A stretch of 64,000 bases of DNA. Origin: Planctomycetes bacterium MalM25. Its GTDB lineage: Bacteria; Planctomycetota; Planctomycetia; Pirellulales; Lacipirellulaceae. Position 1 is the stretch's first letter. Every line of letters begins with the position of its first letter. The notes below the pieces were generated by a model that saw only the letters and a program-made list of their open reading frames with translations, made no database searches and was not told where the DNA came from. A program made the position numbers and the translations under genes. This document shows positions 10,241 to 45,418 of this stretch, in pieces. The DNA lies in NCBI GenBank assembly GCA_007745835.1, contig CP036424.1, positions 1,697,001-1,761,000 on the forward strand, written 5' to 3'.

Positions 10241-10425
10241 ACCTGGGGAGACGTTGGCGGAGTGCTCGGCCAAGTATAGTGCCAGTTGCCCCCATTCCAT
10301 TGGGTGGGTAGTTCGGTCCGCGAACGCTACTTCTCCTAATTTGACCGTCCGTCAAGAACGCGGCCTGTGACCCAGAATGTGGCTAGGTGGAGATTCCGCG
10401 CGCTGTTTCGATGCTTTTTAGCAGC

Positions 10426-14611: not shown

Positions 14612-14663
14612 GACGTGTTGTAGGCCTCGTGGGGGGGCTGACCAGCCTGAATCGTCCATCCGG

Positions 14664-15425: not shown

Positions 15426-15500
15426 CGCAGACGGTCCAAGAGAGCTTTCAAGACGGCCGATTCTAGTCGATCACCACAACCGACAGCCCGGGGACTTGCG

Positions 15501-16619: not shown

Positions 16620-16648
16620 ACCGCTGCCCGGAACACCGCCACGCGATC

Positions 16649-16654
16649 TATAAT
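16649..16654 (+). promoter_or_regulatory. Possible -10 element upstream of the PSD1 gene
   Basis: A perfect TATAAT sits 48 nt before the PSD1 start codon. No good -35 is seen at 17 nt spacing, so it is only a candidate. Confidence 0.35.
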
Positions 16655-16701
16655 GCGAGCTTGCCCTTTAGGCGTTCGCCTTCGGTCTCGTGAGATATGG
16701 C

Positions 16702-19700
16702 ATGACAATCGACTCGGCCCTTCCAGGCACCTACTCGCATCGATCCGCCCAGCGTCAGACGCTCGTCCGCTTGGTCGTTGCGTTTATTGTCCTCGGCGCA
16801 AGCTCCCTAGCGGTGGCCAAACCGAACCCCGACGCCGAGGGCGAGGTCCGGTTCAACCGCGACATCCGCCCGCTGCTCTCGGACCGCTGCTTCGCTTGCC
16901 ACGGTCCCGACGCGGAGAACGCCGCCTCGGGGCTGCGGCTCGACGTGGCCGAGGAGGCCCTCGACTACGGCGCCATCGCACCGGGTGAGCCCGACGAGAG
17001 CGAGATGATCGCTCGCATCGAGAGCGACGATCACGACCTTGTCATGCCCCCGGAAGAGCTGCACAAGCCGCTCACCGACGAAGAGAAGGCCCTGCTCAGG
17101 CGGTGGGTCGCACAGGGCGCCGAGTACGAGCCGCACTGGGCCTACACGCCGATGCGGGCGAAGCCGGAAGAGCTCACGAAGAACCTCGTCGATCACTTCG
17201 TCGAGGCGAAGCTGCGGAGCGAGGGGATCACGCCGGTCGGCGCCGCGGACCGGGTCACGCTGATCCGTCGCCTGTCGCTCGACTTGACCGGCATCCCGCC
17301 GACCGTCGAGGAGGTCGAGTCGTTCGTCAGCGACGTGTCGCCCGACGCCTACGGCCGGCTGGTCGATCGCTTGCTCGACTCGCCACGCTACGGCGAGCGG
17401 ATGGCGTCATACTGGCTCGACCTGGTGCGCTACGCCGACACGGTTGGCTACCACGGCGACCAGGAGATCTCGCAGTGGGCGTACCGCGACTATGTGATCG
17501 ACTCTTTCAACGAGAACCTGCCGTACGATCAGTTCGTCCGCGAACAGCTCGCCGGCGACCTGCTGCCCGAGGCGACCGACCGGCAGCTCATCGCCTCGGG
17601 TTACAATCGCATGAACCAGACGACCGAGGAGGGGGGCGCGCAGGCGAAGGAGTACCTGGCGATCTACTTCGCCGACCGCGTTCGCAACACGTCGCAAGTC
17701 TTCCTCGGTTCGACGCTCGGCTGCGCTCAATGCCACGACCACAAGTACGACCCCTTCACGATCAAGGACTTCTATTCGTTTGGTGCGTTCTTCGCCGATC
17801 TTGAAGAACGGGGCGTCTACTACGGCAGGGGGAACCGGCCGCCGGTCCTGTCGTTGCCCAGCGAAGATCAGCGGCGGCGGATCGAGGAGCTGAAACCCCG
17901 GATCGCCTCGAAGGAAGCGGCGAGGCAGAAGCTGCGTGACGAGCTCCTGGCGGGACTCGACAGCTGGCGGCCAGACGAGGGCGACGAGTTCGCCTGGGTC
18001 GAAGACGCCAAGGCCGAGGGCCGACGCTACCACGGCGAATGGTGGTTCGTTGATGCCTCCTCCAACGACCCGGTCTACAGCGGCGCCCGCTCACGCCGGC
18101 AGGAGAGCGACCGGTTGGTGCAGCACTTCTTCACCCACGCCGAGGACGCGATCACCCTGTCGGCCAAGACCCAGTTCTTCGCTTGGGTCTACCTCGACCC
18201 GAAGAACCCGCCCGACGCCATCATGGTGCAGTTCCACGACGGCAAGGACTGGTCGCACCGCGTCGTCTGGGGCGGGGATCAGATCGTCTACGGCCGCGAC
18301 AAAGAGAGCTGGGCCGGTTACCGCCGGAAGGGCGCCCTGCCCGAGGCGGGCAAGTGGGTCCGCCTCGAAATCGATCCCGCCGAGATCGGCCTGAAGACCG
18401 GCGGAGAGGGCGAGGAGCCGTCGGTCGTGAGCGGCATGGCGTTCACCCAGCACGGCGGGCTCGCGTGGTGGGACCGCGCGGGCTGGAGCCAGAACGCCCC
18501 CGCGGAGGTGCTCGCCGCCCACCAGACTCCCGCCGAGGAGCGCACCGAGGAGCAAGCCAAGGCGCTCACCGATTACTTCTTGCGGACCTCGGCCGAGATG
18601 ACCGAGTTCGATCAGCAGCTCGAGAACCTGCGAGCGGAGCTGAAGGAAGTCGAGGCGTCGGTCCCAACGACCGTCGTCAGCCGCTCCGTGAAGCCCCGGG
18701 CCATTCGCATCCTGCCGCGTGGCAACTGGATGGACGACTCGGGGGACGTGGTGCAGCCGGCCGTGCCCGAGTTCCTGGGGGACCTCGACACGGGAGATCG
18801 GCGGGCGACCCGGCTCGACTTGGCCAACTGGATCGGCAGCGAGGAGAACCCGCTCACCGCCCGAACGATGGCCAACCGCCTGTGGGCGGTGTTGTTCGGG
18901 CGGGGCGTCTGCTCGAGCATCGACGACTTCGGCGGTCAGGGGACGTACCCGTCGGACCCCGACCTGCTCGACGCGCTTGCCGTCGAGTTCGTCGAATCGG
19001 GCTGGGACGTCAAGCACCTGCTCCGCACGATCGCCAACAGCGAGGCGTACCGGCGCAGCTCGCGACCCACGCCCGAGTTGCGTGAGAACGACCCATACAA
19101 CGACGCGTTCGCTCGGCAGGGTCGGTTCCGTGTCGATGCGGAAGTCGTCCGCGACGCGGCGCTCGCGGCGAGCGGCCTGCTCGTGGAACGTGTCGGCGGT
19201 CCGAGCGTGCATCCCTATCAGCCCGCCGGCTACTACGCGCAGCTGAACTTCCCGAAGCGAACCTATCAATCCGACAAGGGCGAATCCCAGTACCGCCGGG
19301 CACTGTACACGCACTGGCAGCGGACCTTCTTGCACCCAATGCTCAAGGCGTTCGACGCCCCGAGCCGCGAAGAATGCACCGCCCAACGCGCCCGCAGCAG
19401 CACGCCGTTGCAAGCGCTGACGCTGCTGAACGATCCGACCTTCGTCGAGGCGGCCCGCGTCTTCGCCGAGCGGATTCTCCGCGAGGGGGGCGCGAGCCTG
19501 CGTGAGCGGATCGTTTGGGCTTACCGGAGCGTCGTCTCGCACGAACCGGAGGCGGAGATCGTCGACGCCCTCGCCGAGGTCTACGAGAACCACCTCGACG
19601 AATACCGCGCGAACCCGACCGCCGCCAAGCAGCTGCTGAGCACCGGCCTGAGCCCGGCCGCGACCGACCTGGACCGCGCCGAGCTGGCCGCATGGACCGG

Positions 19701-19749
19701 CGTCGCTCGCACGATCATGAACCTTCACGAGACCACCACCCGCTACTGA
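16702..19749 (+). CDS. PSD1 protein (cytochrome c-like head, DUF1549, DUF1553)
   Basis: A large planctomycete-type secreted protein of 1,015 aa. After a signal or anchor segment (LVVAFIVLGASSLAVA), VRFNRDIRPLLSDRCFACHG gives the single CxxCH heme site of the PSCyt1 domain. DUF1549 (PSCyt2) covers roughly residues 145-370 and includes GCAQCHDHKYDPFT, a second CxxCH. A beta-rich segment (about 430-600) follows, and then DUF1553 (PSD1, about 680-990). The function of these proteins is not established. Each usually pairs with a DUF1501 gene, as here. ATG at 16702 is preferred to an in-frame GTG 12 nt upstream. Confidence 0.92.
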   Translation: MTIDSALPGTYSHRSAQRQTLVRLVVAFIVLGASSLAVAKPNPDAEGEVRFNRDIRPLLSDRCFACHGPDAENAASGLRLDVAEEALDYGAIAPGEPDESEMIARIESDDHDLVMPPEELHKPLTDEEKALLRRWVAQGAEYEPHWAYTPMRAKPEELTKNLVDHFVEAKLRSEGITPVGAADRVTLIRRLSLDLTGIPPTVEEVESFVSDVSPDAYGRLVDRLLDSPRYGERMASYWLDLVRYADTVGYHGDQEISQWAYRDYVIDSFNENLPYDQFVREQLAGDLLPEATDRQLIASGYNRMNQTTEEGGAQAKEYLAIYFADRVRNTSQVFLGSTLGCAQCHDHKYDPFTIKDFYSFGAFFADLEERGVYYGRGNRPPVLSLPSEDQRRRIEELKPRIASKEAARQKLRDELLAGLDSWRPDEGDEFAWVEDAKAEGRRYHGEWWFVDASSNDPVYSGARSRRQESDRLVQHFFTHAEDAITLSAKTQFFAWVYLDPKNPPDAIMVQFHDGKDWSHRVVWGGDQIVYGRDKESWAGYRRKGALPEAGKWVRLEIDPAEIGLKTGGEGEEPSVVSGMAFTQHGGLAWWDRAGWSQNAPAEVLAAHQTPAEERTEEQAKALTDYFLRTSAEMTEFDQQLENLRAELKEVEASVPTTVVSRSVKPRAIRILPRGNWMDDSGDVVQPAVPEFLGDLDTGDRRATRLDLANWIGSEENPLTARTMANRLWAVLFGRGVCSSIDDFGGQGTYPSDPDLLDALAVEFVESGWDVKHLLRTIANSEAYRRSSRPTPELRENDPYNDAFARQGRFRVDAEVVRDAALAASGLLVERVGGPSVHPYQPAGYYAQLNFPKRTYQSDKGESQYRRALYTHWQRTFLHPMLKAFDAPSREECTAQRARSSTPLQALTLLNDPTFVEAARVFAERILREGGASLRERIVWAYRSVVSHEPEAEIVDALAEVYENHLDEYRANPTAAKQLLSTGLSPAATDLDRAELAAWTGVARTIMNLHETTTRY

Positions 19750-19805
19750 GCCCCAGGGGGATCGCGCCCGCCGGCGCGGCCCCCGGAGCCCGAGGCAGCC
19801 CCGAT

Positions 19806-21248
19806 ATGAACTCACCAAGCCAAGATTCGGCCCGCGCCCTGACACGCCGCACCTTCCTGCGCCAGACCGGCATCGGCTCGGCGGCGCTCGGGTCGCTGCT
19901 CTACCCCGAGTTGCTGGGATCGGCGCTGGCCGGCGCCGAAAAGCCCGCCCCGGGGGGGCGCGGGATCCTCAGCCCGCTGCACCATGAGCCCCGCATCAAA
20001 CGGGTCATCCACCTCTGCATGGCGGGCGGGCCGAGCCACCTCGAGACGTTCGACTACAAGCCGGTCCTCGAACGGCTCGACGGCGAGGCGATGCCCGCTT
20101 CGATGACCGAGGGACGCCCGATCGCCCAGCTGCAGGGCAAGGAGCTGCGGGTCATGGGGCCGCAGCACCCGTTCACGCCGCGCGGCGAGAGCGGGCTGAT
20201 GGTGTCGGACGTCTTCCCGCACCTCGGCGAGCTGGCGGACGAGATGTGCGTCATCAAGTCGATGCACACCGAGCAGATCAACCACGACCCGGCCCACACG
20301 TTCTTCAACACGGGGACGGCGATCAGCGGCCGTCCGTCGATGGGGGCGTGGGTGCTGTACGGGCTCGGCGCGGAGACCGAAGAGCTGCCCGGGTTCATCG
20401 TGCTCACCAGCGAGGGGGGCGGGCAGAGCCAGCCGATCAGCTCGCGGCAGTGGCACTCCGGCTTCCTCCCCAGCCAGCACCAGGGGGTACAGCTGCACGC
20501 GAGCGGGAATCCGGTCCACTACGTCGGCAACCCGGCCGGTGTGAACGAGCGCCAGCAGCGCGAGATCGTCGACACCGTCGGGCGTATCAACAACCTGCGC
20601 GACCGGCAACTCGATGACCCGGAGATCGCCGCGAAGCTCTCGGCCTACGAGATGGCCTTCCGCATGCAGTCGTCGGTCCCCGAGCTGACCGACATGTCGG
20701 GCGAGCCGGAGAGCGTCATCAAGATGTACGGCTGCACGCCGGGCGACGGGTCGTTCGCCAGCAACTGCCTGCAGGCCCGGCGGCTCGCGGAGCGGGGCGT
20801 CCGGTTCATCCAGCTCTACCACCGCGGCTGGGACCACCACGGCGAAGTGAAGAAGGGCGTCGCCTCGACCGCCAAGCTGGTCGATCAGGGCGCCGCCGCG
20901 CTGATCACCGACCTGAAGCAACGCGGCATGCTGGACGACACGCTCGTCATCTGGGGTGGCGAGTTCGGCCGCACGCCGATGGCGCAAGGCACCGGTCGCG
21001 ACCACCACATCCAGGGCTTCTCGATGTTCCTCGCCGGCGGAGGCGTGAAGAGCGGCTTCTCGTACGGCGCGACCGACGAGTTCGGCTACGACGCCGTGGA
21101 CGACAAGGTCCACGTCCGCGACTTCCACGCCACGATGCTCCATCTGCTGGGCATCGACCACAAACGCTTCACGTACAAGTTCCAGGGCCTCGACTTCCGC
21201 CTCACCGGGGTCGAGGAAGCGCACGTCGTGAAGGACGTGCTGGCTTAA
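19806..21248 (+). CDS. DUF1501 protein with Tat signal
   Basis: A 480-aa secreted protein of the alkaline-phosphatase/sulfatase-like fold family DUF1501. The N terminus has a twin-arginine signal (LTRRTFLRQTGIGSAALGSL). Characteristic motifs are CMAGGPSHLETFDYKP, GVRFIQLYHRGWDHHG and LVIWGGEFGRTPMAQG. It is probably folded in the cytoplasm and exported with the upstream PSD1 product. The true start is the ATG at 19806, 57 nt after the PSD1 stop; the open frame extends upstream only as a shadow. Confidence 0.93.
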   Translation: MNSPSQDSARALTRRTFLRQTGIGSAALGSLLYPELLGSALAGAEKPAPGGRGILSPLHHEPRIKRVIHLCMAGGPSHLETFDYKPVLERLDGEAMPASMTEGRPIAQLQGKELRVMGPQHPFTPRGESGLMVSDVFPHLGELADEMCVIKSMHTEQINHDPAHTFFNTGTAISGRPSMGAWVLYGLGAETEELPGFIVLTSEGGGQSQPISSRQWHSGFLPSQHQGVQLHASGNPVHYVGNPAGVNERQQREIVDTVGRINNLRDRQLDDPEIAAKLSAYEMAFRMQSSVPELTDMSGEPESVIKMYGCTPGDGSFASNCLQARRLAERGVRFIQLYHRGWDHHGEVKKGVASTAKLVDQGAAALITDLKQRGMLDDTLVIWGGEFGRTPMAQGTGRDHHIQGFSMFLAGGGVKSGFSYGATDEFGYDAVDDKVHVRDFHATMLHLLGIDHKRFTYKFQGLDFRLTGVEEAHVVKDVLA

Positions 21249-26310: not shown

Positions 26311-26320
26311 TTGTATGCAA
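26311..26320 (+). promoter_or_regulatory. Possible FCD/GntR operator TTGTATGCAA
   Basis: TTGTATGCAA resembles the TTGTnnACAA sites found upstream of both GntR genes in this window (38427-38436 and 39317-39326). It overlaps a possible sigma70 -10 (TAAATT, 26307-26312) preceded at 16 nt by TTGCAG. It lies 91 nt upstream of the ferredoxin start and could place the P450 system under the same control as the agar genes. Confidence 0.4.
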
Positions 26321-26410: not shown

Positions 26411-26722
26411 ATGCCGAAAGTCACCTACATCACCCCGAGCGGCGAAGAGAAAGTGGTCGCCGACGCCCAGGGCAACCTCATGACCGCCGCTGTGGCGAAC
26501 CAAGTCGAAGGGATCGATGGCGATTGCGGTGGGGTCTGCTCGTGCGCAACCTGCCATGTCCATATCGACCCGGAGTGGGCGGAGCGTGTCGGTTCGGCGA
26601 CCGACATCGAGACCGGCATGCTGGAGCTGGAAGATAGCGCCGGTGAGAACAGCCGGCTCGGTTGCCAGGTTGAGCTGACGCCCGAGCTGGACGGCTTGGT
26701 TGTCCGCGTGGTCGGCCGATGA
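26411..26722 (+). CDS. [2Fe-2S] ferredoxin (adrenodoxin/putidaredoxin type)
   Basis: A 103-aa electron carrier. The four cluster ligands are Cys39, Cys45, Cys48 (CGGVCSCATC, the CX5CX2C pattern with an additional Cys43) and Cys85. Sequence features such as HIDPEWAERVG and LELEDSAGENSRLGCQV match ferredoxins serving class I P450s. It begins at the ATG reading MPKVTYITPSG. The stop overlaps the start of the reductase gene in ATGA fashion. It would shuttle electrons from the reductase to the P450 encoded two genes on. Confidence 0.95.
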   Translation: MPKVTYITPSGEEKVVADAQGNLMTAAVANQVEGIDGDCGGVCSCATCHVHIDPEWAERVGSATDIETGMLELEDSAGENSRLGCQVELTPELDGLVVRVVGR

Positions 26723-27954
26723 GCGGGCCGCACTGCGTCGTCGTTGGGGCGGGCCACGCCGCCGCTCAGCTGTGCGCGTCACTCGTGCAGGCGAAGTGGC
26801 CCGGGCGGGTGACCGTCATCGGCGACGAGCCGCACGCGCCCTACCACCGTCCGCCGCTGTCGAAGACTCAGCTCGACGCCTCCCGCGAGCAGCCGCTCCA
26901 GGCGATTCGCCCCGACGCGTTCTACGACGACAACGGGATTGAGCTGCTGCTCGGCAATCGCGTCGACGCGATCGATCGCGACGCGAAGCACGTGCGAGTC
27001 GGCGACCGGACGATCGACTACGACGCCTTGGTCTTGGCGACCGGCTCGACGCACCACAAGCCACCGATCGCCGGCGTCGAGCACCCACGGGTGCTCACCC
27101 TGCAAACGGCGCAGCAAGCCGCCGTGGTGCGTCGCCTGGCCGCCGACGCGCACTCCGCGGTGATCATCGGCGCCGGATTTATCGGCTTGGAAGTCGCGTC
27201 GTCGCTGCGGAAGCTCCGTCTGGAAGTGACCGTGCTCGAGCTCGCCGAGCGGGTGCTGTCCCGCGTGACGTGCCCCGAGGTCTCGGCGTTCTTCGCGCGG
27301 TTGCATCGCGATCACGGCGTCGACTTGCGGACGGGCGTCGCCGCGGAGGGGATCGAGGAGCGGGGCGGCCGCTTGAGCGTCGCCACGAAGGGGGGCGACG
27401 CTTTCCCGGCCGACTTCGTGGTCATCGGCGCCGGCGCCACGCCGAACGTGAAACTCGCCCTCGACGCCGGCCTGGAGGTCGATAACGGGGTGGTGGTCAA
27501 CGAGTTCAACCAGACCTCCGACCCGGCGGTGTACGCGGTGGGCGATTGCTGCAACCAGCACCAACCACGGTACGGGGCGCGGATGCGGCTCGAATCCGTG
27601 CAGAACGCAAACGACCAAGCGAAGACCGTCGCCGCCGCCCTCGCCGGCGAGCCGCGCCCGCACGACGCTTTGCCCTGGTTCTGGTCCGACCAGTACGACG
27701 TGAAGCTGCAGATCGCCGGCGTCTCGACCGGGTACGATCAGCTGGTTCTGCGTGGCGACCCGGAGAGTGGTCCCCCCTTCTCGGCCTGGTACCTGAAGGA
27801 TGGTCGCCTGTTGGCGGTCGATGCGATCAACGACCCGCGCGCCTACGCCGTCGCCAGCCGGCTGATCCCCGCCCGCAAGAGGCCTGACCTGGCGCAGGTC
27901 GCCGACCCGGGCGCCGATCTCAAAATGGTTCTCAACACCGCTCAGGAGTCTTGA
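26719..27954 (+). CDS. FAD-dependent ferredoxin reductase (putidaredoxin/rhodocoxin reductase type)
   Basis: A 411-aa NAD(P)H:ferredoxin reductase. FAD-binding CVVVGAGHAAAQL opens the protein (residues 6-18). YHRPPLSK is the hallmark of this subfamily, VIIGAGFIGLEVASSL (about 150) is the NAD-binding motif, and YAVGDCCNQ (about 275) is the second FAD contact. It is coupled by ATGA to the ferredoxin gene and directly followed by the P450 gene, so the three make a complete class I monooxygenase. Confidence 0.95.
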   Translation: MSGPHCVVVGAGHAAAQLCASLVQAKWPGRVTVIGDEPHAPYHRPPLSKTQLDASREQPLQAIRPDAFYDDNGIELLLGNRVDAIDRDAKHVRVGDRTIDYDALVLATGSTHHKPPIAGVEHPRVLTLQTAQQAAVVRRLAADAHSAVIIGAGFIGLEVASSLRKLRLEVTVLELAERVLSRVTCPEVSAFFARLHRDHGVDLRTGVAAEGIEERGGRLSVATKGGDAFPADFVVIGAGATPNVKLALDAGLEVDNGVVVNEFNQTSDPAVYAVGDCCNQHQPRYGARMRLESVQNANDQAKTVAAALAGEPRPHDALPWFWSDQYDVKLQIAGVSTGYDQLVLRGDPESGPPFSAWYLKDGRLLAVDAINDPRAYAVASRLIPARKRPDLAQVADPGADLKMVLNTAQES

Positions 27955-27956
27955 AC

Positions 27957-29099
27957 GTGTCCGATCCGCTCGATCCGTTCCGCGAAGACCGCGAGGCCGA
28001 CGGTTACAAGTACGTCGAGGCGGAGGGGCAGGACGTGCCGCTCGTCTTGCGGCTGCAGGACGTTCGAAAGACGTGCAAGGACACGAAGACCTTCAGCAAC
28101 GACAACCCGTTGATGATCGTCCTGCACTCCGAGGCCCACGTCCGCGACGTGCGTCAGCTGCCGATCGAGACCGATCCGCCCGATCACACCGAGTATCGCA
28201 AGCTGGTCGAGCCGATGTTCCGCCAGCCGAACGACCCTGATTACCAGGCCGGCATGCGCGCTCTGGTGCGGGACATGGTCGCCCAGGTGTTGGCCGCCGA
28301 CGAGGTCGAGGCGGTGCGCCAATTCGCTCTGCCTTTGCAGTCGCGGGCGCTGACCCGGTTGCTGGGCGTAGACGAGTCGGAGGCCGATCTCTGGATCGGT
28401 TGGGGCGTGCACGTCTTCCGCGACGGCGAGCTCGGACCGAAGGGCTCGGAGCTCGACCAGTACATCCTCGCCAAGTTTGAGGAGCTGAAGGACTCCGACG
28501 CCGACGACTTCTTCAGCCAGCTGAACCGGATCGACTTCCGCGGACGGAAGCTCACCCTCGAGGAGAAGCACGGTTTCGCGAACATGGCGTTCGCCGGCGG
28601 ACGTGACACGGTGATCAACACGGTCAGCAGCATTCTCGCCTACCTCTACGAAAACCACGAGGCGCTCGACTTCCTGCGTGGGGATGAGAAGCGGTTGGTG
28701 ACAGCGACCGAAGAGTTCGTCCGCTTCGTCAGCCCGCTGACGGTCATCTCTCGGACCTGCCCGCACGCCGCGGAGATCCTCGACCAGCCGGTCAAAGAGG
28801 GGGACCGCATCGGCCTCTGCTGGCCATCGGCCAACCGCGACGCCTCGGTCTTCGATCGCGCGGACGAGGTCGTGCTAGACCGGGCGCCGAACCCGCACGT
28901 CGGTTTCGGCTTCGGGGCGCACAACTGCCTGGGCCAGCACCAGGCCCGCCTGATCATCCGCAGCCTCCTCGCCGAACTGTGCGAGCAGGTCGAGCGTCTC
29001 GAACTGGTCGAAGCGGTGCCTGAAATGGAGCACGAGTCGTCGTACTCCCGTCAGGTCGGCTACAAGAAACTGCGTGTGCGTTTCGTTCCAAAAGGCTGA
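27957..29099 (+). CDS. Cytochrome P450, candidate 6-O-methyl-galactose demethylase
   Basis: A soluble 380-aa P450. The heme-ligand loop GFGFGAHNCLGQHQAR places the cysteine near residue 324. The I-helix reads AFAGGRDTVIN near 211, with Arg in the usual AGxxT turn, and EEFVR gives the K-helix ExxR. A P450 with its own ferredoxin and reductase inside an agar locus matches the systems described in marine Bacteroidetes that oxidatively demethylate 6-O-methyl-D-galactose, releasing formaldehyde. That substrate is inference from context. The start is either GTG at 27957 (used) or TTG at 27951 overlapping the reductase stop. Confidence 0.9.
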   Translation: MSDPLDPFREDREADGYKYVEAEGQDVPLVLRLQDVRKTCKDTKTFSNDNPLMIVLHSEAHVRDVRQLPIETDPPDHTEYRKLVEPMFRQPNDPDYQAGMRALVRDMVAQVLAADEVEAVRQFALPLQSRALTRLLGVDESEADLWIGWGVHVFRDGELGPKGSELDQYILAKFEELKDSDADDFFSQLNRIDFRGRKLTLEEKHGFANMAFAGGRDTVINTVSSILAYLYENHEALDFLRGDEKRLVTATEEFVRFVSPLTVISRTCPHAAEILDQPVKEGDRIGLCWPSANRDASVFDRADEVVLDRAPNPHVGFGFGAHNCLGQHQARLIIRSLLAELCEQVERLELVEAVPEMEHESSYSRQVGYKKLRVRFVPKG

Positions 29100-29236: not shown

Positions 29237-30508
29237 GTGACGATCCGATTAGCACTTGTTGCGGCTCTGGCGTTTGTTTGGCTCGACGCAGGCGTGGCTC
29301 GGGAACCCAAGGTCTTTCCTTACGGGGAAGTGCCCGAAGAGAAGCCCGAGATGCCGCTCAGCAAGGCCATGGACCGGGTTTACGAGGGCAGCTACACCGG
29401 GCTCGATTGCGCTCGCAACGAGCTGTTCTCGAATTTCAAGTACACTCCACTGAAGGGCTTCGATTACCACGGCCACGACGGGACCGTTTCGCGTCGAGAC
29501 GCGACCAAGGTCATCCGCGTTGATGGCAAGTACTACGTCTGGTACACGCACCGCGAGACGCCCACCCCGCCGGATTACGACGGGGGCGCGAACGAGACGA
29601 TCCCGTCGCGCGACTGGGACTTGGCCGAAATCTGGTACGCCACCAGCGACGACGGCTTCGTCTGGGAAGAGCAGGGCGTCGCGGTGAAGCGGATGGAGAA
29701 GCCGCACGCCGGCTGGCGGTCGGTCTCCACGCCCGACATCCTCATCTGGAAGGGGAAGTACTACCTCTACTACCAGGCCTATCTGGAGATGCCCGGCAGC
29801 CGGACGTCGAGCGCGACCAACGGCGATGACTGCCCGGTCTCAGTCTCGGTGGCCGATTCACCGAACGGCCCGTGGAAGCCCTCGAACAAGATCGTGGTCG
29901 AGAACGGCCCCCCCGGCTCGTGGGATCAGTACGTGATCCACGACCCGTACCCGCTGGTCTTCAACGACAAGATCTACCTGTACTACAAGGGCGAGATGGG
30001 CGGCAGCCCCCCGGTGCGGGCGCAGGGGCTGGCGATCGCCGAGGATCCCATGGGCCCGTTCGTGAAGCACCCCCTCAATCCCGTGATCAACTCGGGCCAC
30101 GAGACGTCGCTGTTCCCGTTCAAGTCGGGGCTGGCGGCGTTGGTCAGCCGCCACGGGCTGGAGCACAACACGATCCAGTACTCGCCCGACGGCGTGAACT
30201 TTGAAATCGCCGCCATCACCGGCCTGATGCCGATCGCCCCGGGCGCTCACGTGCCGGACGCCTTCACAGGAACCAAGGACGGACGCGGCATCACCTGGGG
30301 CCTTTGCCACTTCCGCAACCTCAAGCGAGGCGAGGGCAAGAGCCACAGCATGCTCGCCCGCTTCGACTGTGACCTCAGCCTCGACGTCCACGACCTCGAG
30401 ATGAAGGAGAGCGACATCTTCAACGACCCGGAGATCAACTTCCGTTTCGGCCTCAGCGATGAGCAACGCGAGCGCATCGAAGCCGCCGCCCGCAAAGCGG
30501 ACGAGTAA
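29237..30508 (+). CDS. Secreted GH117-like glycoside hydrolase (neoagarobiose hydrolase family or relative)
   Basis: A 423-aa five-bladed-propeller hydrolase with a signal peptide (IRLALVAALAFVWLDAGVA). It shares with the GH117 protein at 45419-46486 the motifs RRDATKVI, VSTPDIL, YYLYYQAY, HDPYPLV and NSGHETSLF. GH117 enzymes release 3,6-anhydro-L-galactose from the non-reducing end of neoagaro-oligosaccharides. This copy is more divergent and exported, so its substrate could be a sulfated or methylated variant. GTG start at 29237 follows AGAGGGG by six bases. The C terminus (DEQRERIEAAARKADE) is helical. Confidence 0.85.
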   Translation: MTIRLALVAALAFVWLDAGVAREPKVFPYGEVPEEKPEMPLSKAMDRVYEGSYTGLDCARNELFSNFKYTPLKGFDYHGHDGTVSRRDATKVIRVDGKYYVWYTHRETPTPPDYDGGANETIPSRDWDLAEIWYATSDDGFVWEEQGVAVKRMEKPHAGWRSVSTPDILIWKGKYYLYYQAYLEMPGSRTSSATNGDDCPVSVSVADSPNGPWKPSNKIVVENGPPGSWDQYVIHDPYPLVFNDKIYLYYKGEMGGSPPVRAQGLAIAEDPMGPFVKHPLNPVINSGHETSLFPFKSGLAALVSRHGLEHNTIQYSPDGVNFEIAAITGLMPIAPGAHVPDAFTGTKDGRGITWGLCHFRNLKRGEGKSHSMLARFDCDLSLDVHDLEMKESDIFNDPEINFRFGLSDEQRERIEAAARKADE

Positions 30509-31339: not shown

Positions 31340-32440
31340 TCAGCGATCCACACGTGCCGAGCCGCCGCCGACCAGCTTCTCGACCTCGGCGAGGCTCGCC
31401 ATCGAGGTGTCGCCCGGGGTGGTCATCGCCAGGGCGCCGTGCGCGGCGCCGTACTCAACGGCCCGCTCGGCGCCGTAGCCCTGCATGAGCCCGTAGATCA
31501 GGCCCGAGGCGAAGCTGTCGCCGCCGCCGACGCGGTCGAAGATCTCCAGGCCGGTGCGGTGGGTCGCCTCGAAGCACTCGCCGGCCGACCAGCAGAGCGC
31601 GCCCCAGTCGTTGTTGCTCGCGGAGTGGACGGTGCGGAGCGTGGTGGCGATGGCTTTGAAGTTCGGATAGGTGGCGGACGCCTTCTCGATCATCCGCTTG
31701 TAGCCTTCGATCGGCAGGTGCGAGAGCCCCTCGTCGACGCCTTCAACCGACAAGCCGAGGCACGCGGTGAAGTCCTCTTCGTTGCCGAACATCACATCGA
31801 CCAGCGGGGCCAGTTCCTTGTTCACCTGCTGCGCCCGCTCGGCGCCGCCGTTCGCTTTCCACAGCGAGGGGCGGTAGTTCAGGTCGTACGACGTGACGAC
31901 GCCCGCCTCGCGGGCGGCGGTGAGCGCTTCCTTCGCGACGGCGGGGCTCGTGTCGGACAGCGCGGCGAAGACGCCCCCCGTATGGAACCAGCGGGCGCCC
32001 TGGTCCAGGAAAATCGACTTCCAATCGATCTCGCCCGGCTGTAGTTGGGCGACGGCCGTCATGCCCCGGTCGCTGCAGCCCACGGCGCCGCGGACGCCGT
32101 AGCCGCGTTCGGTGAAGTTGAGCCCGTTGCGGACGCCGCGGCCGACGCCGTCGTAGGGGGCCCATCGCACGTGGCTCACGTCGACCCCGCCCTGGAGCAT
32201 GAGATCCTCGACCAGACGGCCGACCTCGTTGTCGGCCAGCGCGGTGATGATCGCCGTTCGCTTGCCGAAGCAGCGACGCATCCCGCGGGCGACGTTGTAC
32301 TCGCCTCCGCCTTCCCAAGCGGTGAAGCGGCGCGCGGTGCGGACGCGGCCGGGCCCGGGGTCAAGCCGGAGCATCACCTCGCCCAGCGAGACCAGGTCGT
32401 AGCGGCATGAGTCGGCGTCGCGGAGAGTGAGGGTCGCCAT
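31340..32440 (-). CDS. kdgK: PfkB-family sugar kinase, probable 2-keto-3-deoxygluconate (KDG) kinase
   Basis: A 366-aa ribokinase-fold kinase. The substrate-side glycine motif WEGGGEYNVARGM is near residue 45, and the catalytic signature DRVGGGDSFASGLIYG lies near 310. It would phosphorylate the C6 hydroxyl of KDG to KDPG, which the adjacent aldolase (19 nt upstream) then cleaves. The C-terminal MTTPGDTSMASLAEVEKL is typical of KDG kinases. ATG at 32440 (MATLTLRD) is used; the frame continues 22 codons upstream across the aldolase stop. Specificity for KDG rather than KDGal is inferred from the full pathway in this operon. Confidence 0.88.
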   Translation of the reverse strand: MATLTLRDADSCRYDLVSLGEVMLRLDPGPGRVRTARRFTAWEGGGEYNVARGMRRCFGKRTAIITALADNEVGRLVEDLMLQGGVDVSHVRWAPYDGVGRGVRNGLNFTERGYGVRGAVGCSDRGMTAVAQLQPGEIDWKSIFLDQGARWFHTGGVFAALSDTSPAVAKEALTAAREAGVVTSYDLNYRPSLWKANGGAERAQQVNKELAPLVDVMFGNEEDFTACLGLSVEGVDEGLSHLPIEGYKRMIEKASATYPNFKAIATTLRTVHSASNNDWGALCWSAGECFEATHRTGLEIFDRVGGGDSFASGLIYGLMQGYGAERAVEYGAAHGALAMTTPGDTSMASLAEVEKLVGGGSARVDR

Positions 32441-32459
32441 CGTCTCGGTGGGGGTTGGC

Positions 32460-33098
32460 TTAGTGTGAGGCGGCCAGCGTGACCGCTTCGCGAACCGCCT
32501 GCTCAACGCGGTCGAAGGCGCCGTCCTCGTACAGTTTCGGGGAGACCATCCAGCTGCCGCCGCACGCGATCACGGCGTCGAGCTTCAGGTAGTCGAGCAG
32601 GTTGTCGGCGGAGACGCCGCCGGTGGGCATGAACCGGGCCTGAGGGAAGGGGGCCGAGAGCGCCTTGAGCATGCCGACCCCGCCCGCGGCGCCCGCGGGG
32701 AAGAACTTCAGAACGTCGACTCCCGCCGCGAGGGCGGCCTGCAACTCGCTCGGCGTGCAAACGCCCGGGCAGATCGGCACGCCGAGTTGCTGCGCCCGCT
32801 CGACGACGCTCGGGCTGAAGCCTGGCGAGACGATCATCTTGGCGCCGGCGTCGACGGCCGCCTCGACCTGTTGGGCGTTGATCACCGTGCCGGCGATGGC
32901 GAGCACGTCGTCGCGGCGGCCGACGGCCCGCAGGGCCTCGATCGCGCCGGGCTTGCGGAGCGTCATCTCGGCGATCGGCAGTCCGCCCGCGACCAACGCG
33001 TCGGTCAGACCCATCGCCCGATCGACGTCCGCCTCGGAAACGACCGGCACCACGCGATGCTTGCCGATGAGTTCGTACACCTCTTGCGGGTCGGACAT
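32460..33098 (-). CDS. eda: KDPG/KHG aldolase (Eda family)
   Basis: A 212-aa class I aldolase. The Schiff-base lysine is Lys131 in VLKFFPA, and the proton-transfer glutamate is Glu44 in IAEMTLR. GTVINAQQVEAAVDAGA and FMPTGGVSADN are the usual phosphate- and substrate-binding regions. It splits KDPG into pyruvate and glyceraldehyde-3-phosphate, the last step of 3,6-anhydrogalactose breakdown. It is sited between the cycloisomerase and kinase genes with short gaps. Confidence 0.93.
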   Translation of the reverse strand: MSDPQEVYELIGKHRVVPVVSEADVDRAMGLTDALVAGGLPIAEMTLRKPGAIEALRAVGRRDDVLAIAGTVINAQQVEAAVDAGAKMIVSPGFSPSVVERAQQLGVPICPGVCTPSELQAALAAGVDVLKFFPAGAAGGVGMLKALSAPFPQARFMPTGGVSADNLLDYLKLDAVIACGGSWMVSPKLYEDGAFDRVEQAVREAVTLAASH

Positions 33099-33145
33099 CG
33101 CTCGCTTGGCTTGGTGGGTAGAGAGTTGGGCCGGCTAAACAAGCG

Positions 33146-34297
33146 TCAGATGAGCGTCTTCTTCATTGCGGTCGGCTTCACGCGGTGCGGCGTGTTGACC
33201 GCCGCCTTGCCGACCCGGCAGCGCTCGATCCGCTCCCAGTCGATCTCGACGCCGTGGCCCGGGCGGTCCGAGGCGTACGCGTAGCCGTCGACGATCTCCA
33301 GCTGGTGGACGAGGAACTCGTCCAAGCGGAAGGCGTGGATCTCCAGCAGCGAGGCGTTGGGGATCGCCGCGAGGATGTTCACGTGCATCTCTTGGATGCC
33401 GTGCGTCGTGACGTTGCGGTTGTGGGCCTCGGCGATGTGGGCGACCTTCATCGTCGCGGTGATGCCACCCAGGTTCGACACGTCGACGTCCGGGAACGAG
33501 ATGCCCCCTTCGGCGATCATCCGGCGGAACTCGTACACCGTGTGCAGGTTCTCGCCCGAGGCGACCGGGGTCGGTCCCTCGGTTTCGATGCGGCGGTTGC
33601 CCTCGATGTCGTCGGGGATGGTCGGCTCTTCGAGCCAGTAGACGTTGTAGTCGGCGAAGGCGCGGGAGGCCTTGATCGCTTGATCGACGCTCCACTTCAT
33701 GTTGGCGTCGACCATGAGCTTGCGCTCCTCGCCGATGAGGCCTCGCATGGCGGCCAGACGCTGGCACTCTTCGGCGATCGACTCGCGGCCGACCTTGATC
33801 TTGAAGGCGTTCAGCCCCGCTTCCATGAAGCCGTTGGTTTGCTCGAGCAGCTCGTCGATCGACAGGTGGAAGTCGATGCCGCCGCCGTAGGCTTCGGCCT
33901 TGTTGTCTTCGCCGCCCAGGTAACGCCAGAGGGGCTCGTTGGCGGCCCGAGACTTGAGGTCCCAGAGGGCGACGTCGATCGCCGAGGCGGCGAAGGTGGC
34001 GATGCCGCCGCGGCCGACGTAGTGGGTTGCCCACCACATCTTCTTCCACAGCCGTTCGATGTTGCGTGGGTCCTCGCCCACGATGAGCGGCGCCAGGTTG
34101 TCCTGGAGCATGGCGGCGATCGCCGTGCCGCCCGTCTTGCCGACGGCGTACGTGTAGCCCATGCCGGTCGCGCCGTCGTCCGTCGTGAGACGGACGGTCA
34201 CCAGCGAGAACTCCCGTTGCACGCCGTGGATGGCGTCCTCCAGGGGTTGCGCCAGCGGCACGTGGTAGAGCGCGATATCGATGTGGCTAACTTTCAT
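33146..34297 (-). CDS. Enolase-superfamily enzyme, probable 3,6-anhydro-L-galactonate cycloisomerase
   Basis: A 383-aa mandelate racemase/muconate lactonising-type enzyme. The N-terminal capping domain is followed by a barrel with the KxK pair Lys166/Lys168 (FKIKVG), metal ligands Asp197 (VDAN), Glu223 (WLEEP) and Glu249 (SGEN), and His299 (THGIQEMHVN). The family opens or dehydrates sugar acids. Next to a dehydrogenase that would make anhydrogalactonate, and with KDG enzymes downstream, the cycloisomerase that converts it to 2-keto-3-deoxy-L-galactonate is by far the best fit. A galactonate dehydratase is the alternative. Confidence 0.85.
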   Translation of the reverse strand: MKVSHIDIALYHVPLAQPLEDAIHGVQREFSLVTVRLTTDDGATGMGYTYAVGKTGGTAIAAMLQDNLAPLIVGEDPRNIERLWKKMWWATHYVGRGGIATFAASAIDVALWDLKSRAANEPLWRYLGGEDNKAEAYGGGIDFHLSIDELLEQTNGFMEAGLNAFKIKVGRESIAEECQRLAAMRGLIGEERKLMVDANMKWSVDQAIKASRAFADYNVYWLEEPTIPDDIEGNRRIETEGPTPVASGENLHTVYEFRRMIAEGGISFPDVDVSNLGGITATMKVAHIAEAHNRNVTTHGIQEMHVNILAAIPNASLLEIHAFRLDEFLVHQLEIVDGYAYASDRPGHGVEIDWERIERCRVGKAAVNTPHRVKPTAMKKTLI

Positions 34298-34360
34298 AGG
34301 ACACTCAGCGTGACTCTGGTTCTCTGCTGGCCGTCGTAAGGACGCTTGCGTTTATTGACG

Positions 34361-35815
34361 TCAAGCGAAGTTGACGTACATCGTTTTCTTCTCGAGGTAG
34401 TTATCCATGCCGTAGCGGCCGTCTTCTCCGCCGGTGCCGCTCAGCTTGTGGCCGTTGTGGAAGCCCTGGCGTTGCTCGCCCATCGGCCGGTTCACGTAGA
34501 TCTCGCCAAACTCCAGCTCGGCGACGGCGCGTTGTACGCACCGCAGATCGCTTGTGAAGAGGAACGCGGCCAGGCCGTAATCGCAGTCGTTCGCCAGGGC
34601 GAGTGCCTCGTCGTAGGACCCGACCCGCATGATCGGGCTCACCACGCCGAAGACCTCCTCCCGCATCACTTCCATCTGGTTGTTGCAGCCGGTCAGGACG
34701 GTCGGCTCGTACCAGTGGCCGCGTTCGAACTGGGCGCCCTCGGGGCGTTTGCCGCCGACCTCCAGTTTGGCGCCCTCGTCGATCGCCCGTTTGACCATCG
34801 CCTCGAGGTTGTCGGTTTCGTACGCGTTGACCTTGGGCCCGATGTCGGTCCCCTCTTCCATCGGGTCGCCGATCTTGAGCTGGCGGACGCGGTCGCAGTA
34901 CTTCTGCACGAACTCGTCGTAAACGGCGTCGTGGATGTAGAAACGCTCGGGGCAGGTGCAGACCTGACCGCTGTTCAGGTGCCGCGACACGACCGCGCAG
35001 TCGACCGCTTTATCGACGTCGCCGTCGGCGAGCAGGATGAAGGGCGCCTTGCCCCCCAGCTCGAGCCGCACGGCGGTCAGGTTGTCGGCCGCCTTCTTGA
35101 AGATCTGCTGGCCCGTGGCGGTCGAGCCGGTCATCGTCACGAGGCTGGTCAGCTTGTTGGTGACCAATTCTTCGCCCATGGTCGAGCCGCCGCCGGTGAC
35201 CAAGCCGAGCACCCCCTTCGGGATGCCCGCTTGCTCGGCGAGCTCGCCCAGGCAGAGTACGGCGACGGGCGTCACGGAGGGGGGCTTCACCACCATCGTG
35301 TTGCCGGTCGTCAGCGCGGGCCCGATCTTGCGGCACGAGAGCGCCAGCGGGAAGTTCCAGGCCGCGATGCCCACGGTCACACCGTAAGGCACCCGGTGGA
35401 TCATGAGGTGCTCGCTCGGGTTGTCGGAGGGGAGGATGTCCCCCTCGACACGCCGCGCGGCTTGGGCGGGGAAGTTGATGAAGTCGGCCGACACATCCAC
35501 CTCGCCCAGGGCGAGGCTGTAGGTCTTGCCCATCTCGTGAACGAGGGTCTTCGCGAGTCGTTCGCGGTTCTCGAGGATCAGCTCGGCGAAGCGGGCGAGG
35601 ATCTTGCCACGCTCGACCGCGGGCGTCGCCGCCCAGGCGGGTTGCGCGCGCTTGGCAGCCTCGAGCGCGGCGATGGCGTCCTGCTGGCTGCCGTTGGGCA
35701 CGGTGTACAGCACCTCCTCGGTCGTCGGGCTGGCGACCTCGATGACGCCTCCCGACGCGGCGTCGCCGAAGCGGCCGTCGATGTACATCCGGTGGTGTTG
35801 CGGTCCGTCGTTCAT
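34361..35815 (-). CDS. Aldehyde dehydrogenase, probable 3,6-anhydro-L-galactose dehydrogenase
   Basis: A 484-aa NAD(P)-dependent ALDH. Asn154 (WNFPL), Glu252 (LELGGKAP) and nucleophile Cys286 (NSGQVCTC) are in place; the second Cys288 is noteworthy. The sequence resembles lactaldehyde/glycolaldehyde dehydrogenases (AldA group), to which characterised anhydrogalactose dehydrogenases also belong. It would oxidise L-3,6-anhydrogalactose to anhydrogalactonate, the committed step. The gene lies directly upstream of the cycloisomerase gene. Confidence 0.88.
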   Translation of the reverse strand: MNDGPQHHRMYIDGRFGDAASGGVIEVASPTTEEVLYTVPNGSQQDAIAALEAAKRAQPAWAATPAVERGKILARFAELILENRERLAKTLVHEMGKTYSLALGEVDVSADFINFPAQAARRVEGDILPSDNPSEHLMIHRVPYGVTVGIAAWNFPLALSCRKIGPALTTGNTMVVKPPSVTPVAVLCLGELAEQAGIPKGVLGLVTGGGSTMGEELVTNKLTSLVTMTGSTATGQQIFKKAADNLTAVRLELGGKAPFILLADGDVDKAVDCAVVSRHLNSGQVCTCPERFYIHDAVYDEFVQKYCDRVRQLKIGDPMEEGTDIGPKVNAYETDNLEAMVKRAIDEGAKLEVGGKRPEGAQFERGHWYEPTVLTGCNNQMEVMREEVFGVVSPIMRVGSYDEALALANDCDYGLAAFLFTSDLRCVQRAVAELEFGEIYVNRPMGEQRQGFHNGHKLSGTGGEDGRYGMDNYLEKKTMYVNFA

Positions 35816-35860
35816 TTCAGATCGAAGAGTTGAAACGTTGGTTTAAAGGTGGGGGGGAGG

Positions 35861-36631
35861 TCAGCGTCCCATCCAGCCGCCATCGACCAGCACCGTCGTG
35901 CCGTGCATGTAGTCCGAGGCGCTCGACGCGAGGAAGACGGCGGGACCCTTGAAGTCTTCTGGCTCGCCCCAGCGTCCCGCCGGGATGCGGCCGAGGATTT
36001 GCTCGCTGCGGACCGGGTCGTTGCGGAGCGCCTCGGTGTTGTCGGTGGCGATGTAGCCGGGGGCGATGGCGTTGACGTTCACGCCCTTCGACGCCCACTC
36101 GTTGGCCAGGGCCATCGTGAGCTGGCCGATGCCCCCCTTGCTCGCCGCGTAGCCGGGGACGGTGATGCCGCCTTGGAACGTGAGCAACGAGGCGGTGAAG
36201 ATGATCTTGCCCGAGCCCCGCTCGACCATCCGCTTGCCGAACTCGCGCGACAGCACGAACTGGGCGTTGAGGTTCACCTCGATGACCTTGTCCCAGTACT
36301 CGTCCGGGTGCTCGGCGGCCGGCTCGCGAAGGATGGTCCCCGCGTTGTTGATCAGGATGTCGATCCGCGGGTTCTCGGCGAGCGCCTTCTCGGCGAAGGC
36401 CCGGACCGAGTCGCGGCTGGAGAAGTCGCACTGGTACGCCTTGAACGAACGCCCCGTGGCGGCGACCTCGTCGGCGACGGCGCTGCCCGTTTCGGGCAAC
36501 GAAGCCGACACGCCGAGCACGTCCGCCCCCGCCTCGGCGAGGGCGACCGCCATCGACTTGCCGATGCCGCGCGAGCAACCGGTCACGAGGGCCGTCTTGC
36601 CGGCGAGCGAAAAGAGGTCGAGCGTGCCCAT
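35861..36631 (-). CDS. SDR oxidoreductase, KduD-like; probable 2,5-diketo-3-deoxygalactonate reductase
   Basis: A 256-aa classical short-chain dehydrogenase. TGCSRGIG (residues 18-25) binds the cofactor, NNAG sits near 95, and catalytic Ser148, Tyr161 and Lys165 (YAASK) are present. The C terminus SDYMHGTTVLVDGGWMGR matches KduD-type 2-deoxy-D-gluconate 3-dehydrogenases. In the known bacterial route, L-KDGal is oxidised at C5 to a diketo acid and re-reduced to D-KDG; this SDR and the adjacent zinc-type dehydrogenase would be the pair that does so. A galactose dehydrogenase is a weaker alternative. Confidence 0.85.
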   Translation of the reverse strand: MGTLDLFSLAGKTALVTGCSRGIGKSMAVALAEAGADVLGVSASLPETGSAVADEVAATGRSFKAYQCDFSSRDSVRAFAEKALAENPRIDILINNAGTILREPAAEHPDEYWDKVIEVNLNAQFVLSREFGKRMVERGSGKIIFTASLLTFQGGITVPGYAASKGGIGQLTMALANEWASKGVNVNAIAPGYIATDNTEALRNDPVRSEQILGRIPAGRWGEPEDFKGPAVFLASSASDYMHGTTVLVDGGWMGR

Positions 36632-36680: not shown

Positions 36681-37694
36681 TCAGCGGCAGTCGATCAGGT
36701 ACTTCACGCCGTCCGGGTTGGAATCGACGGTCTCGAAGACCCGCTGCACTTCGTCGATCGGGTTGATCTGCGTGATGAGCTTGTCGAGGTGGAGCTTGCC
36801 CGCGGCGGACAGGGCGATCGCCTCGTCGAAATCGCACGGCTCGTAGAGCCGCGTGCCGATCAGTTTCAGCTCGCACCAGAAGAAACGGAAGAGATCGACC
36901 GGACGGGGCTCGGGGTGGACGGCCACCATTACGAGGCGGCCCCGCACGCCCGTTAGCTGGGTCATCGCCTCGACGCCCTGCTTGGATCCGGAGACCTCGA
37001 AGACACAGTCCGCCATCGCTCCGCCGGTCAGCTCGGTAACCATGGCGACCGGGTCGGCGTTGAGCGGATTGACCGTCTCGATGCCGAGCGTCTCCGCCAG
37101 GGCGAGACGCGATTCATTGATCTCGGAGAGGATGACGCGGGCGCCCTTCTCGATGGCGACCAACGCGATGAGCAGGCCGATCGGTCCTCCGCCGATGACG
37201 ACGCACGTCTCGCCGTCGGTCACCTCGGCGAGGCGGACGTCGTGGCAGGCGACGGCGGCCGGCTCGATCATCGCGCCGTGCGTCATCGACAGGTCGGCAG
37301 GGAGGTGGTGCAGCGTGTAGGCGGGCACCGTCCAAGACGATTGCATGCCGCCCGGCTGGTCGATCCCGATGAACTTCAGGTTCTTGCCGACGTGCGCCGC
37401 GCCACGGTCGAAGGCTTCCGCCTGGCCAAACAGCAGCGGACGCACGGCGACCCGGTCACCCACCGCGACGTTCGTCACCCCGTCGCCGATTTCGGCGACC
37501 GTACCGGACACCTCGTGCCCGAGGATCTGGGGCGGGCCGACGCGCTGGTCCATCGAGCCGTGAAAGATGTGCAGGTCGGTGCCGCAGACGCCGCAGTACG
37601 AGACGTCGAGGCGCACCTGGCCGCTGTCCGGCGCGATCGGTTCACTCGGAACCACCGCGACGGTGCGATCGCCTTGGTACTGGGCTGCTCCCAT
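36681..37694 (-). CDS. Medium-chain dehydrogenase (Zn-ADH superfamily), probable L-KDGal 5-dehydrogenase
   Basis: A 337-aa MDR enzyme. Catalytic zinc ligands are suggested by CGVCGTD and GHEVSG and the glutamate in MIEPAAVACH; the NAD fold has VVIGGGPIGLL. The structural-zinc lobe is abnormal: where four cysteines are usual, the sequence reads PLLFGQAEAFDRGAAHVGKN, with none. That loss occurs in some LgoD/galactonate-dehydrogenase-like relatives. It probably oxidises C5 of 2-keto-3-deoxy-L-galactonate. ATG at 37694 is chosen. The gene is immediately downstream of a GntR regulator. Confidence 0.83.
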   Translation of the reverse strand: MGAAQYQGDRTVAVVPSEPIAPDSGQVRLDVSYCGVCGTDLHIFHGSMDQRVGPPQILGHEVSGTVAEIGDGVTNVAVGDRVAVRPLLFGQAEAFDRGAAHVGKNLKFIGIDQPGGMQSSWTVPAYTLHHLPADLSMTHGAMIEPAAVACHDVRLAEVTDGETCVVIGGGPIGLLIALVAIEKGARVILSEINESRLALAETLGIETVNPLNADPVAMVTELTGGAMADCVFEVSGSKQGVEAMTQLTGVRGRLVMVAVHPEPRPVDLFRFFWCELKLIGTRLYEPCDFDEAIALSAAGKLHLDKLITQINPIDEVQRVFETVDSNPDGVKYLIDCR

Positions 37695-37749
37695 GCCGTG
37701 TTGCTGTTGTGAGTTGGGGTGGGCCACGCCGCGAGGCGGGCGTTGTGGT

Positions 37750-38349
37750 TTAAGTGATGTTGTCGCTGAGCGCCTTGATCAGGCCGTCGAGGTCCTCGGA
37801 GCGGAACGCCTCGTAGATCTGCTGGTGCTCGGCGTGCACCAGGCCGATGTCCGAGAAGCGGTCGTACACCAGGATCATCCGCGAGCAGAGCTGCTTCCAG
37901 GCGGGCAGCAGGCTCTCACCGCCGCACGCCGACAAGATCGCCTCGTGGAAGTCGAGGTCGCACCGCTTGATCGCGGCGAGGTCCCCGGCGAGGCACGCTT
38001 CGTGCAGCGCGGCCAGGGAGTCTTCGACTTGGCTTTGACCGTCATTCGTGACTTGGCTGACGCCCTTCGTCACCACGTGCAGCTCGATCTGCCGACGCAG
38101 CTCGGCGATGAACTCGCGGTCCGACTGGTCGGGCGGGTGACGCACGGTCACGCCCCGATTCGCCTGGTAGGCCAGGTAGCCTTCGTTGGACAGTTGGAGG
38201 AACGCATCCCGGATCGGTCCTCGGCTCACGCCGAAGCGCGTCGCGAGGTCGTTCTCGCGCAGCACGGCCCCTGGCGCGATGGCGCCGGCGATCACTTCAT
38301 CGCGCAGTTGGCAGGTGACCTGCTCTCGGATGGTTCGCGAAATGGGCAC
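37750..38349 (-). CDS. GntR-family (FadR/FCD) transcriptional regulator 1
   Basis: A 199-aa regulator with an N-terminal winged helix (RTIREQVTCQLRDEVIAG, ATRFGVSRGPIRDAFLQL) and an all-helical FCD ligand domain (about 80-199; metal-type residues in DLDFHEAIL and HAEHQQIYEAF). I start it at GTG 38349, giving MPISRTIREQV; this aligns with the paralogue at 39268 and has AGGAA ten bases upstream. It is the first gene before the anhydrogalactose operon (55 nt gap) and probably represses it until an acid-sugar intermediate binds. A perfect palindrome TTGTTAACAA lies upstream. Confidence 0.88.
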   Translation of the reverse strand: MPISRTIREQVTCQLRDEVIAGAIAPGAVLRENDLATRFGVSRGPIRDAFLQLSNEGYLAYQANRGVTVRHPPDQSDREFIAELRRQIELHVVTKGVSQVTNDGQSQVEDSLAALHEACLAGDLAAIKRCDLDFHEAILSACGGESLLPAWKQLCSRMILVYDRFSDIGLVHAEHQQIYEAFRSEDLDGLIKALSDNIT

Positions 38350-38426
38350 GATTGTGCGTTCCTGTTTGAAACCCGCTGCGGCTGCGCAGAAGGAGGATAA
38401 GGTGACAGCCTCGCGCCGACTGTCGG

Positions 38427-38436
38427 TTGTTAACAA
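38427..38436. promoter_or_regulatory. Palindromic GntR operator candidate TTGTTAACAA
   Basis: A perfect 10-bp palindrome 78 nt upstream of the regulator-1 start, fitting the TnGTnnnACnA-like pattern bound by FCD-type GntR proteins. A related site precedes the second GntR gene. Confidence 0.5.
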
Positions 38437-39316: not shown

Positions 39317-39326
39317 TTGTCTACAA
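39317..39326. promoter_or_regulatory. GntR operator candidate TTGTCTACAA
   Basis: An imperfect palindrome in the 294-bp divergent gap between regulator 2 and the agarase gene; it could serve both directions. Same half-sites (TTGT/ACAA) as at 38427-38436. Confidence 0.45.
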
Positions 39327-45385: not shown

Positions 45386-45418
45386 CGCTCTCCCCCTTCA
45401 AGAACCGAGACCCACACC

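Follow-up and report, generated by a model that had tools for sequence, protein, structure and literature searches.

Introduction

Methyl groups block the digestion of galactans, and in the work cited here their oxidative removal has been shown for flavobacterial enzymes only. As described in two reports, flavobacterial cytochrome P450s of this kind demethylate 6-O-methyl-galactose (PMC10033563; PMC8360166); the first of them also presents the P450, its redox partners, an esterase and an alcohol dehydrogenase (ADH) as a recurring set, and states that a knock-out of the ADH has a strong growth defect on methylated galactose and that the enzyme has no activity on formaldehyde (PMC10033563). Here, we analysed a stretch of 64,000 nucleotides from Planctomycetes bacterium MalM25 (contig CP036424.1, positions 1,697,001 to 1,761,000; hereafter the window, in whose own coordinates positions are given), which carries an operon for a ferredoxin (Fdx), a ferredoxin reductase (FdR) and a P450 at 26411–29099. 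By analogy with the flavobacterial enzymes, this operon most likely encodes a class I P450 system by which 6-O-methyl-D-galactose is demethylated during agar or porphyran breakdown.

In Zobellia galactanivorans, the demethylation cluster carries the locus tag zgal_4674 in a figure legend of PMC10033563, and a passage of PMC5613140 describes ZGAL_4657–4669 as an agar-induced cluster with GH117 and anhydrogalactose genes. The demethylation tags are numbered just after this cluster, and the setting in the window is alike. The preliminary description of the window had presented the operon as extending this chemistry to a new phylum. This novelty fails, since a passage of PMC12316285, citing Reisky 2018, already assigns demethylation to the agarose loci of aerobic members of Pseudomonadota, Bacteroidota and Planctomycetota. 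In the tree described below, the planctomycete enzymes form a lineage separate from that of the marine enzymes.

The window resembles the systems of Zobellia and Formosa agariphila in its P450 fold, the AGGRDT motif, polar residues of the family and the Fdx and FdR partners, as well as in its red-algal galactan setting with an ADH and an esterase in the locus. All five parts are thus present in the window in a comparable setting. It differs in that its P450 falls in another clade, at 43.5% identity to the solved enzyme 6g5o, and in that the ADH–esterase pair lies 17.5 kb off. The agar plasmid pSD15 of Microscilla sp. PRE1 (NC_002806.1) likewise holds a P450, Fdx, FdR, ADH, esterase and beta-agarase, all within about 12 kb; identities to the window proteins are 43% for the P450, 56% for the ADH, which is encoded near the P450, and 48% for the esterase, encoded beside the ADH gene. 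Unlike the window, pSD15 is a mobilizable bacteroidote plasmid, on which two genes annotated as alpha-L-fucosidases and one for an arylsulfatase lie close by, and the gene order in Microscilla and Catenovulum is P450-Fdx-FdR, as opposed to Fdx-FdR-P450. The order of the window is shared by a cassette in G412, a genome from another family of Planctomycetota (P450 66–68%, ADH 67–68%, esterase 64%, Fdx 80% and FdR 64% identity). There, the ADH gene and the esterase gene beside it follow 1.9 kb after the P450 gene, with two small open reading frames (ORFs) between, and the whole set of five fits into about 7 kb; the GH117-type gene, unlike that of the window, is elsewhere.

A coupled ferredoxin, reductase and P450 operon

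All three genes are on the plus strand. The first (26411–26722) encodes a [2Fe-2S] ferredoxin of the putidaredoxin type, the predicted electron carrier to the P450 (Fer2, 28.1 bits), with the cysteine motif CGGVCSCATC...C; in a search of PDB chains its best solved relatives were the 3hui ferredoxin and putidaredoxin. The second (26719–27954) encodes an NAD(P)H-dependent ferredoxin reductase with FAD (Pyr_redox_2, 221.9 bits; Reductase_C, 112.8 bits), among whose best solved relatives is putidaredoxin reductase (313 bits), and which is 59% identical to FdR of lichen Acidobacteria and 42–43% to that of Microscilla and Catenovulum. The third (27957–29099) encodes a cytochrome P450 (PF00067, 53.4 bits) with the heme-ligand cysteine at residue 324, predicted to be a 6-O-methyl-D-galactose O-demethylase. 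The MalM25 genome is a single contig of 4.72 Mb with one further Pfam P450 match besides this one. Because the domain scores are so high, a chance origin of these ORFs is ruled out.

The Fdx stop and the FdR start overlap in an ATGA (26719–26722). For the P450, the start candidates are TTG 27951, which overlaps the FdR stop, and GTG 27957; the latter is more likely judging from its context, 2 bases past the FdR stop and 8 bases past an AGGAG. In agreement with the preliminary description, which had noted translational coupling and adjoining agar genes, the coordinates, the ATGA overlap and the agar neighbours were all confirmed.

The P450 groups with a carbohydrate-active enzyme

Among all solved chains, the best matches of the P450 were 6g5o and 6g5q (324 bits), deposited under the title ‘The structure of a carbohydrate active P450’, which we take to be the Zobellia 6-O-methyl-D-galactose P450 monooxygenase. 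Far lower scores were obtained for CYP125MRCA (126 bits, the next match), CYP109B4 (122), P450terp (101) and P450cin (95). CYP236A is presumably the name of P450s of the 6g5o type; a literature search under cyp236a found no paper. By the P450 naming rule, enzymes above 40% identity share a family and those above 55% a subfamily, which at 43.5% would place the window P450 in the same family as 6g5o and in another subfamily.

For the phylogeny we used 38 rows, namely the window P450, 22 locus proteins, 6g5o and 14 outgroup rows (12 planctomycete P450s, CYP125MRCA and CYP109B4), with P450terp and P450cin outside the tree. Left out were L002 and L003 from the window, L004 from the same contig as locus L018 of Botrimarina hoheduenensis, and L001, the second P450 of MalM25, which had no match at 1e-5; the two genomes that matched most weakly had no locus to contribute. 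The window P450, the 22 locus proteins and 6g5o formed one clade with support of 100/99, and the outgroup rows fell outside it. Three groups were recovered within this clade: a marine one with 6g5o, Catenovulum and Microscilla (100/99); a group of five planctomycete and lichen Acidobacteria rows that includes the window P450 (100/100); and 16 rows of Verrucomicrobia with one planctomycete, G041 (98/99). The planctomycete/lichen group joins the Verrucomicrobia group (90/82) and not the marine one, which gives no support to direct horizontal transfer from marine Bacteroidota. Inside the planctomycete/lichen group, the join of the window P450 with that of B. hoheduenensis is weakly supported (86/28).

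All 24 family rows have the AGGRDT motif, whose arginine is R216, and none of the 14 outgroup rows does, which bears out the suggestion that this residue marks the family. In total, 83 positions are invariant across the 24 family rows, including polar residues of the B-C loop and the I-helix that are absent from most or all of the outgroup rows. Among the invariant residues, S58, E59, R63, R66, Q67, E71, H152, R216, T262 and R365 are candidate sugar contacts. An AlphaFold2 model, built from 14 of 23 family sequences (mean pLDDT 75.9), was closest to 6g5q (Z 42.1, rmsd 2.2 over 370 residues; next family Z 32.2), with a TM score of 0.91 to 6g5o/6g5q and of at most 0.83 to others among the matches listed. 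Phylogeny and structure prediction, which the preliminary description had named among its checks, both led to 6g5o, the former placing the P450 away from the CYP125 and CYP109B4 rows. Taking the nearest structure, the tree and AGGRDT together, its assignment as a putative 6-O-methyl-galactose demethylase stands as the best function call.

An alcohol dehydrogenase and an esterase accompany the P450

Further along the plus strand, the gene at 46607–47716 encodes a zinc ADH of the flavobacterial demethylation-cluster type (8h2a, 460 bits; 8h2b, 457; next match, 191). We take 8h2a and 8h2b to be the ADHs of Z. galactanivorans and F. agariphila (Zo/FoADH). The gene is overlapped by that of an esterase (47703–48539, plus strand; PF00756, 64.6 bits). 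Another ADH gene, at 36684–37727, was rejected as the partner, its product being threonine-dehydrogenase-like.

The P450 was found in 2 of 392 planctomycete genomes at E <= 1e-60 and the ADH in 4 of them at E <= 1e-80, both P450 genomes included (hypergeometric p = 8e-5; 0.008 without the window’s genome). B. hoheduenensis (G003), of the same genus as MalM25, has Fdx-P450, the ADH, a GH117-type gene and agar genes; in the two other genomes of the genus that were searched (G001 and G002), neither a P450 match nor a close ADH nor a GH117-type gene was found. Among 12 other P450-bearing genomes or records, seven encode such an ADH at 52–57% identity: both lichen Acidobacteria, three Verrucomicrobia and both plasmids. 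Matches reached 34–35% in G453, G454 and G456, and none was found in G450 and G455 at E <= 1e-30; the match in G041 is at 35%. Overall, the ADH accompanies the P450 in 10 of 16 genomes or records tested, and in 7 of 7 from the marine and planctomycete/lichen clades.

Starting from the observed gene set, homology, clade, agar setting and co-occurrence with the ADH–esterase pair, we transferred the substrate, the reaction, import and the roles of ADH and esterase from the flavobacterial system. On this analogy, agarase and GH117-type enzymes would help to release the sugar, and methylated galactose would enter the cell, perhaps through the sugar porter encoded at 43802–45382. Electrons would pass from NAD(P)H to FdR, then to Fdx and on to the P450, which would hydroxylate the methyl group, and the resulting hemiacetal would break into D-galactose and formaldehyde.

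Several observations weigh against this proposal. The window P450 is 43.5% identical to 6g5o and sits in a different clade, and in the model pLDDT falls below 50 both in the substrate (B-C) loop, residues 45–76, and in the heme loop. The ADH–esterase pair is 17.5 kb downstream of the P450, and in Catenovulum P450-Fdx-FdR lie about 200 kb from the ADH. The ADH also occurs in two planctomycete genomes that lack the P450 (G098 and G336), and in the clade of Verrucomicrobia and G041 the ADH was found in 3 of 9 tested genomes. In B. hoheduenensis (L018, 9648–11140), the P450 gene comes directly after that of Fdx, the reductase gene being absent from its usual place, and a search of the rest of this genome gave no close FdR (best match, 113 bits). 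Finally, we found no known formaldehyde route. The tetrahydromethanopterin-linked route is a planctomycete trait, but neither Fae nor Mch is present in the MalM25 genome, and the route was rejected. The same holds for the glutathione-linked one: with the profile of glutathione-dependent formaldehyde dehydrogenase (TIGR02818, curated cut-off 543.95 bits), none of three genomes (MalM25, G003 and G412) gave a match above the cut-off, which 3 of 14 control genomes passed. The best match in MalM25 (212.7 bits) was the ADH at 46607 itself, and the corresponding ADH was likewise the best match in G003 and G412.

Agar genes and a candidate operator

Directly downstream of the operon, a GH117-type glycoside hydrolase (29237–30508, plus strand) has a GH43-clan domain. 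Its substrate may differ from that of the named anhydro-galactosidases, since its nearest chains are 4u6d (553 bits) and 4u6b (452), and those named anhydro-galactosidase score 188–210. Both 4u6d and 4u6b are deposited as conserved hypothetical proteins. On the minus strand, the domain matches of genes at 31340–36631 fit an anhydro-L-galactose pathway (a PfkB-type kinase, a KDPG-type aldolase, an MR/MLE cycloisomerase-like protein, an aldehyde dehydrogenase and an SDR); the cycloisomerase-like protein matches 5xd7 at 344 bits, but 2ovl, a ‘putative racemase’, scores higher (382). An agarase-domain protein (39563–41896, plus strand; Agarase_CBM, 87.3 bits) is presumably of the GH86 type. Between it and the sugar porter sits a protein with a PhoD-like phosphatase domain (41947–43794). 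A second GH117-type enzyme (45419–46486, plus strand) is encoded directly before the ADH gene; it is the true gene there, and we rejected the minus-strand ORF at 45398–46411 as false.

A candidate controller is a GntR/FCD regulator recognised by its domain match (38663–39268, minus strand), with a second one at 37750–38436. A candidate operator, TTGTCTACAA, lies at 39317–39326 in the gap that separates the GntR2 and agarase genes, and an imperfect copy, TTGTATGCAA, at 26311–26320, about 90 bp before the Fdx start. The pattern uniting the two was chosen after the sites were seen. In the window, the first operator pattern matched 5 times (mean, 1.6), a count that was also attained in 6 of 100 shuffles; as the window alone is weak, the case rests on B. 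hoheduenensis. In that genome the exact 10-mer TTGTCTACAA occurs four times (reversed-pattern control, 2), two of them in the agar locus (L041, 3046 and 18125), namely in the GntR2/agarase gap and about 180 bp before Fdx-P450, and none of 200 shuffles had it twice in the 20-kb locus stretch. The site before Fdx is close to the start, itself uncertain, of a divergent ORF. The whole MalM25 genome has two copies of the 10-mer (reversed-pattern control, 0), and no site was found before the G412 operon. Shared control of the P450 operon and the agar genes through a putative GntR operator is therefore a lead, no more.

Elsewhere in the window, a vanadium-chloroperoxidase-like protein with a weak PEP-CTERM match (53720–56098) adjoins a chlorite dismutase family protein. 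At 10429–16616, two cyclopropane-synthase-type methyltransferases, an amine-oxidase-type flavoprotein and a fatty acid desaturase are perhaps a lipid-modification cluster.

Relatives outside the sea and alternative functions

The closest relatives outside Planctomycetota are P450s of lichen Acidobacteria, at 64–66% identity to the window P450. In two lichen Acidobacteriaceae metagenome-assembled genomes (L019 and L020, about 2800–20000), Fdx-FdR-P450 stand beside a GH127-type enzyme; in L019 an outer-membrane barrel of the TonB type also adjoins them, and a GH43-type gene lies farther along. None of the window’s agar genes had a match in the 21 kb searched at the L019 locus. A possible interpretation is that the lichen loci are a land version of sugar demethylation. 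Verrucomicrobia and Opitutae loci (L021–L035), several with lake-like record names, encode a P450 of the family at about 50% identity. Within the locus DNA searched, the window Fdx and FdR had no match in these 15 loci, and the neighbours are mixed in two of them (including ABC ATPase, sulfatase and methyltransferase genes). Literature searches aimed at the lichen and Verrucomicrobia relatives found no paper on them among the results listed.

These relatives bear on the alternative that best survives, namely that the enzyme is a sugar demethylase acting chiefly on another substrate, such as another methyl position, an oligosaccharide or a furanose, the planctomycete/lichen clade having drifted. 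The separation of this clade from the marine enzymes would agree with it, as would the lichen locus with its GH127-type enzyme and none of the window’s agar genes, and an entry in the reference list of a lichen review (PMC8042158) concerns a mannogalactan, O-methylated, from a lichen alga. The agar setting is nevertheless common to the window, B. hoheduenensis and flavobacteria, 6-O-methyl-galactose is the methylated sugar described there, and the window P450 and 6g5o have polar family residues in common, so that we regard a different main substrate as unlikely.

It is much less probable still that the P450 is an ordinary steroid, fatty acid or terpene hydroxylase that came to lie beside agar genes by chance. 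A class I P450 with putidaredoxin-type partners is a common layout, but CYP125 and CYP109B4 stand outside the clade and score 126 and 122 bits against 324, P450terp and P450cin (neither placed in the tree) score 101 and 95, and the ADH and esterase co-occur with the P450. A recent, non-functional import, which the rarity of the P450 in the phylum (the 2 of 392 genomes) and the missing FdR in B. hoheduenensis might suggest, is the least credible of all given three intact frames, retained catalytic and cluster cysteines, tight coupling and an operator possibly common to the operon and the agarase gene.

Discussion

A 6-O-methyl-D-galactose demethylase acting in agar or porphyran breakdown accounts best for the operon. 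The recurrence of these five parts in a planctomycete, with two of them some way off, adds to the case for counting the ADH and the esterase as members of the pathway. Since searches for three families (Fae, Mch and TIGR02818) gave no recognised route for formaldehyde, the role of the ADH becomes testable.

We tentatively propose a broader picture, for which we would claim somewhat less than an even chance: the window P450 may represent a single branch of a larger sugar O-demethylase family whose members act beyond the sea and agar as well, in lichen Acidobacteria and in Verrucomicrobia of probable lake origin, with the ADH as a step of the pathway and, in these planctomycetes, possibly the formaldehyde step. 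The spread of the family beyond the sea is the more interesting lead: if the lichen and lake relatives do act on methyl sugars, this chemistry would reach beyond marine red algae.

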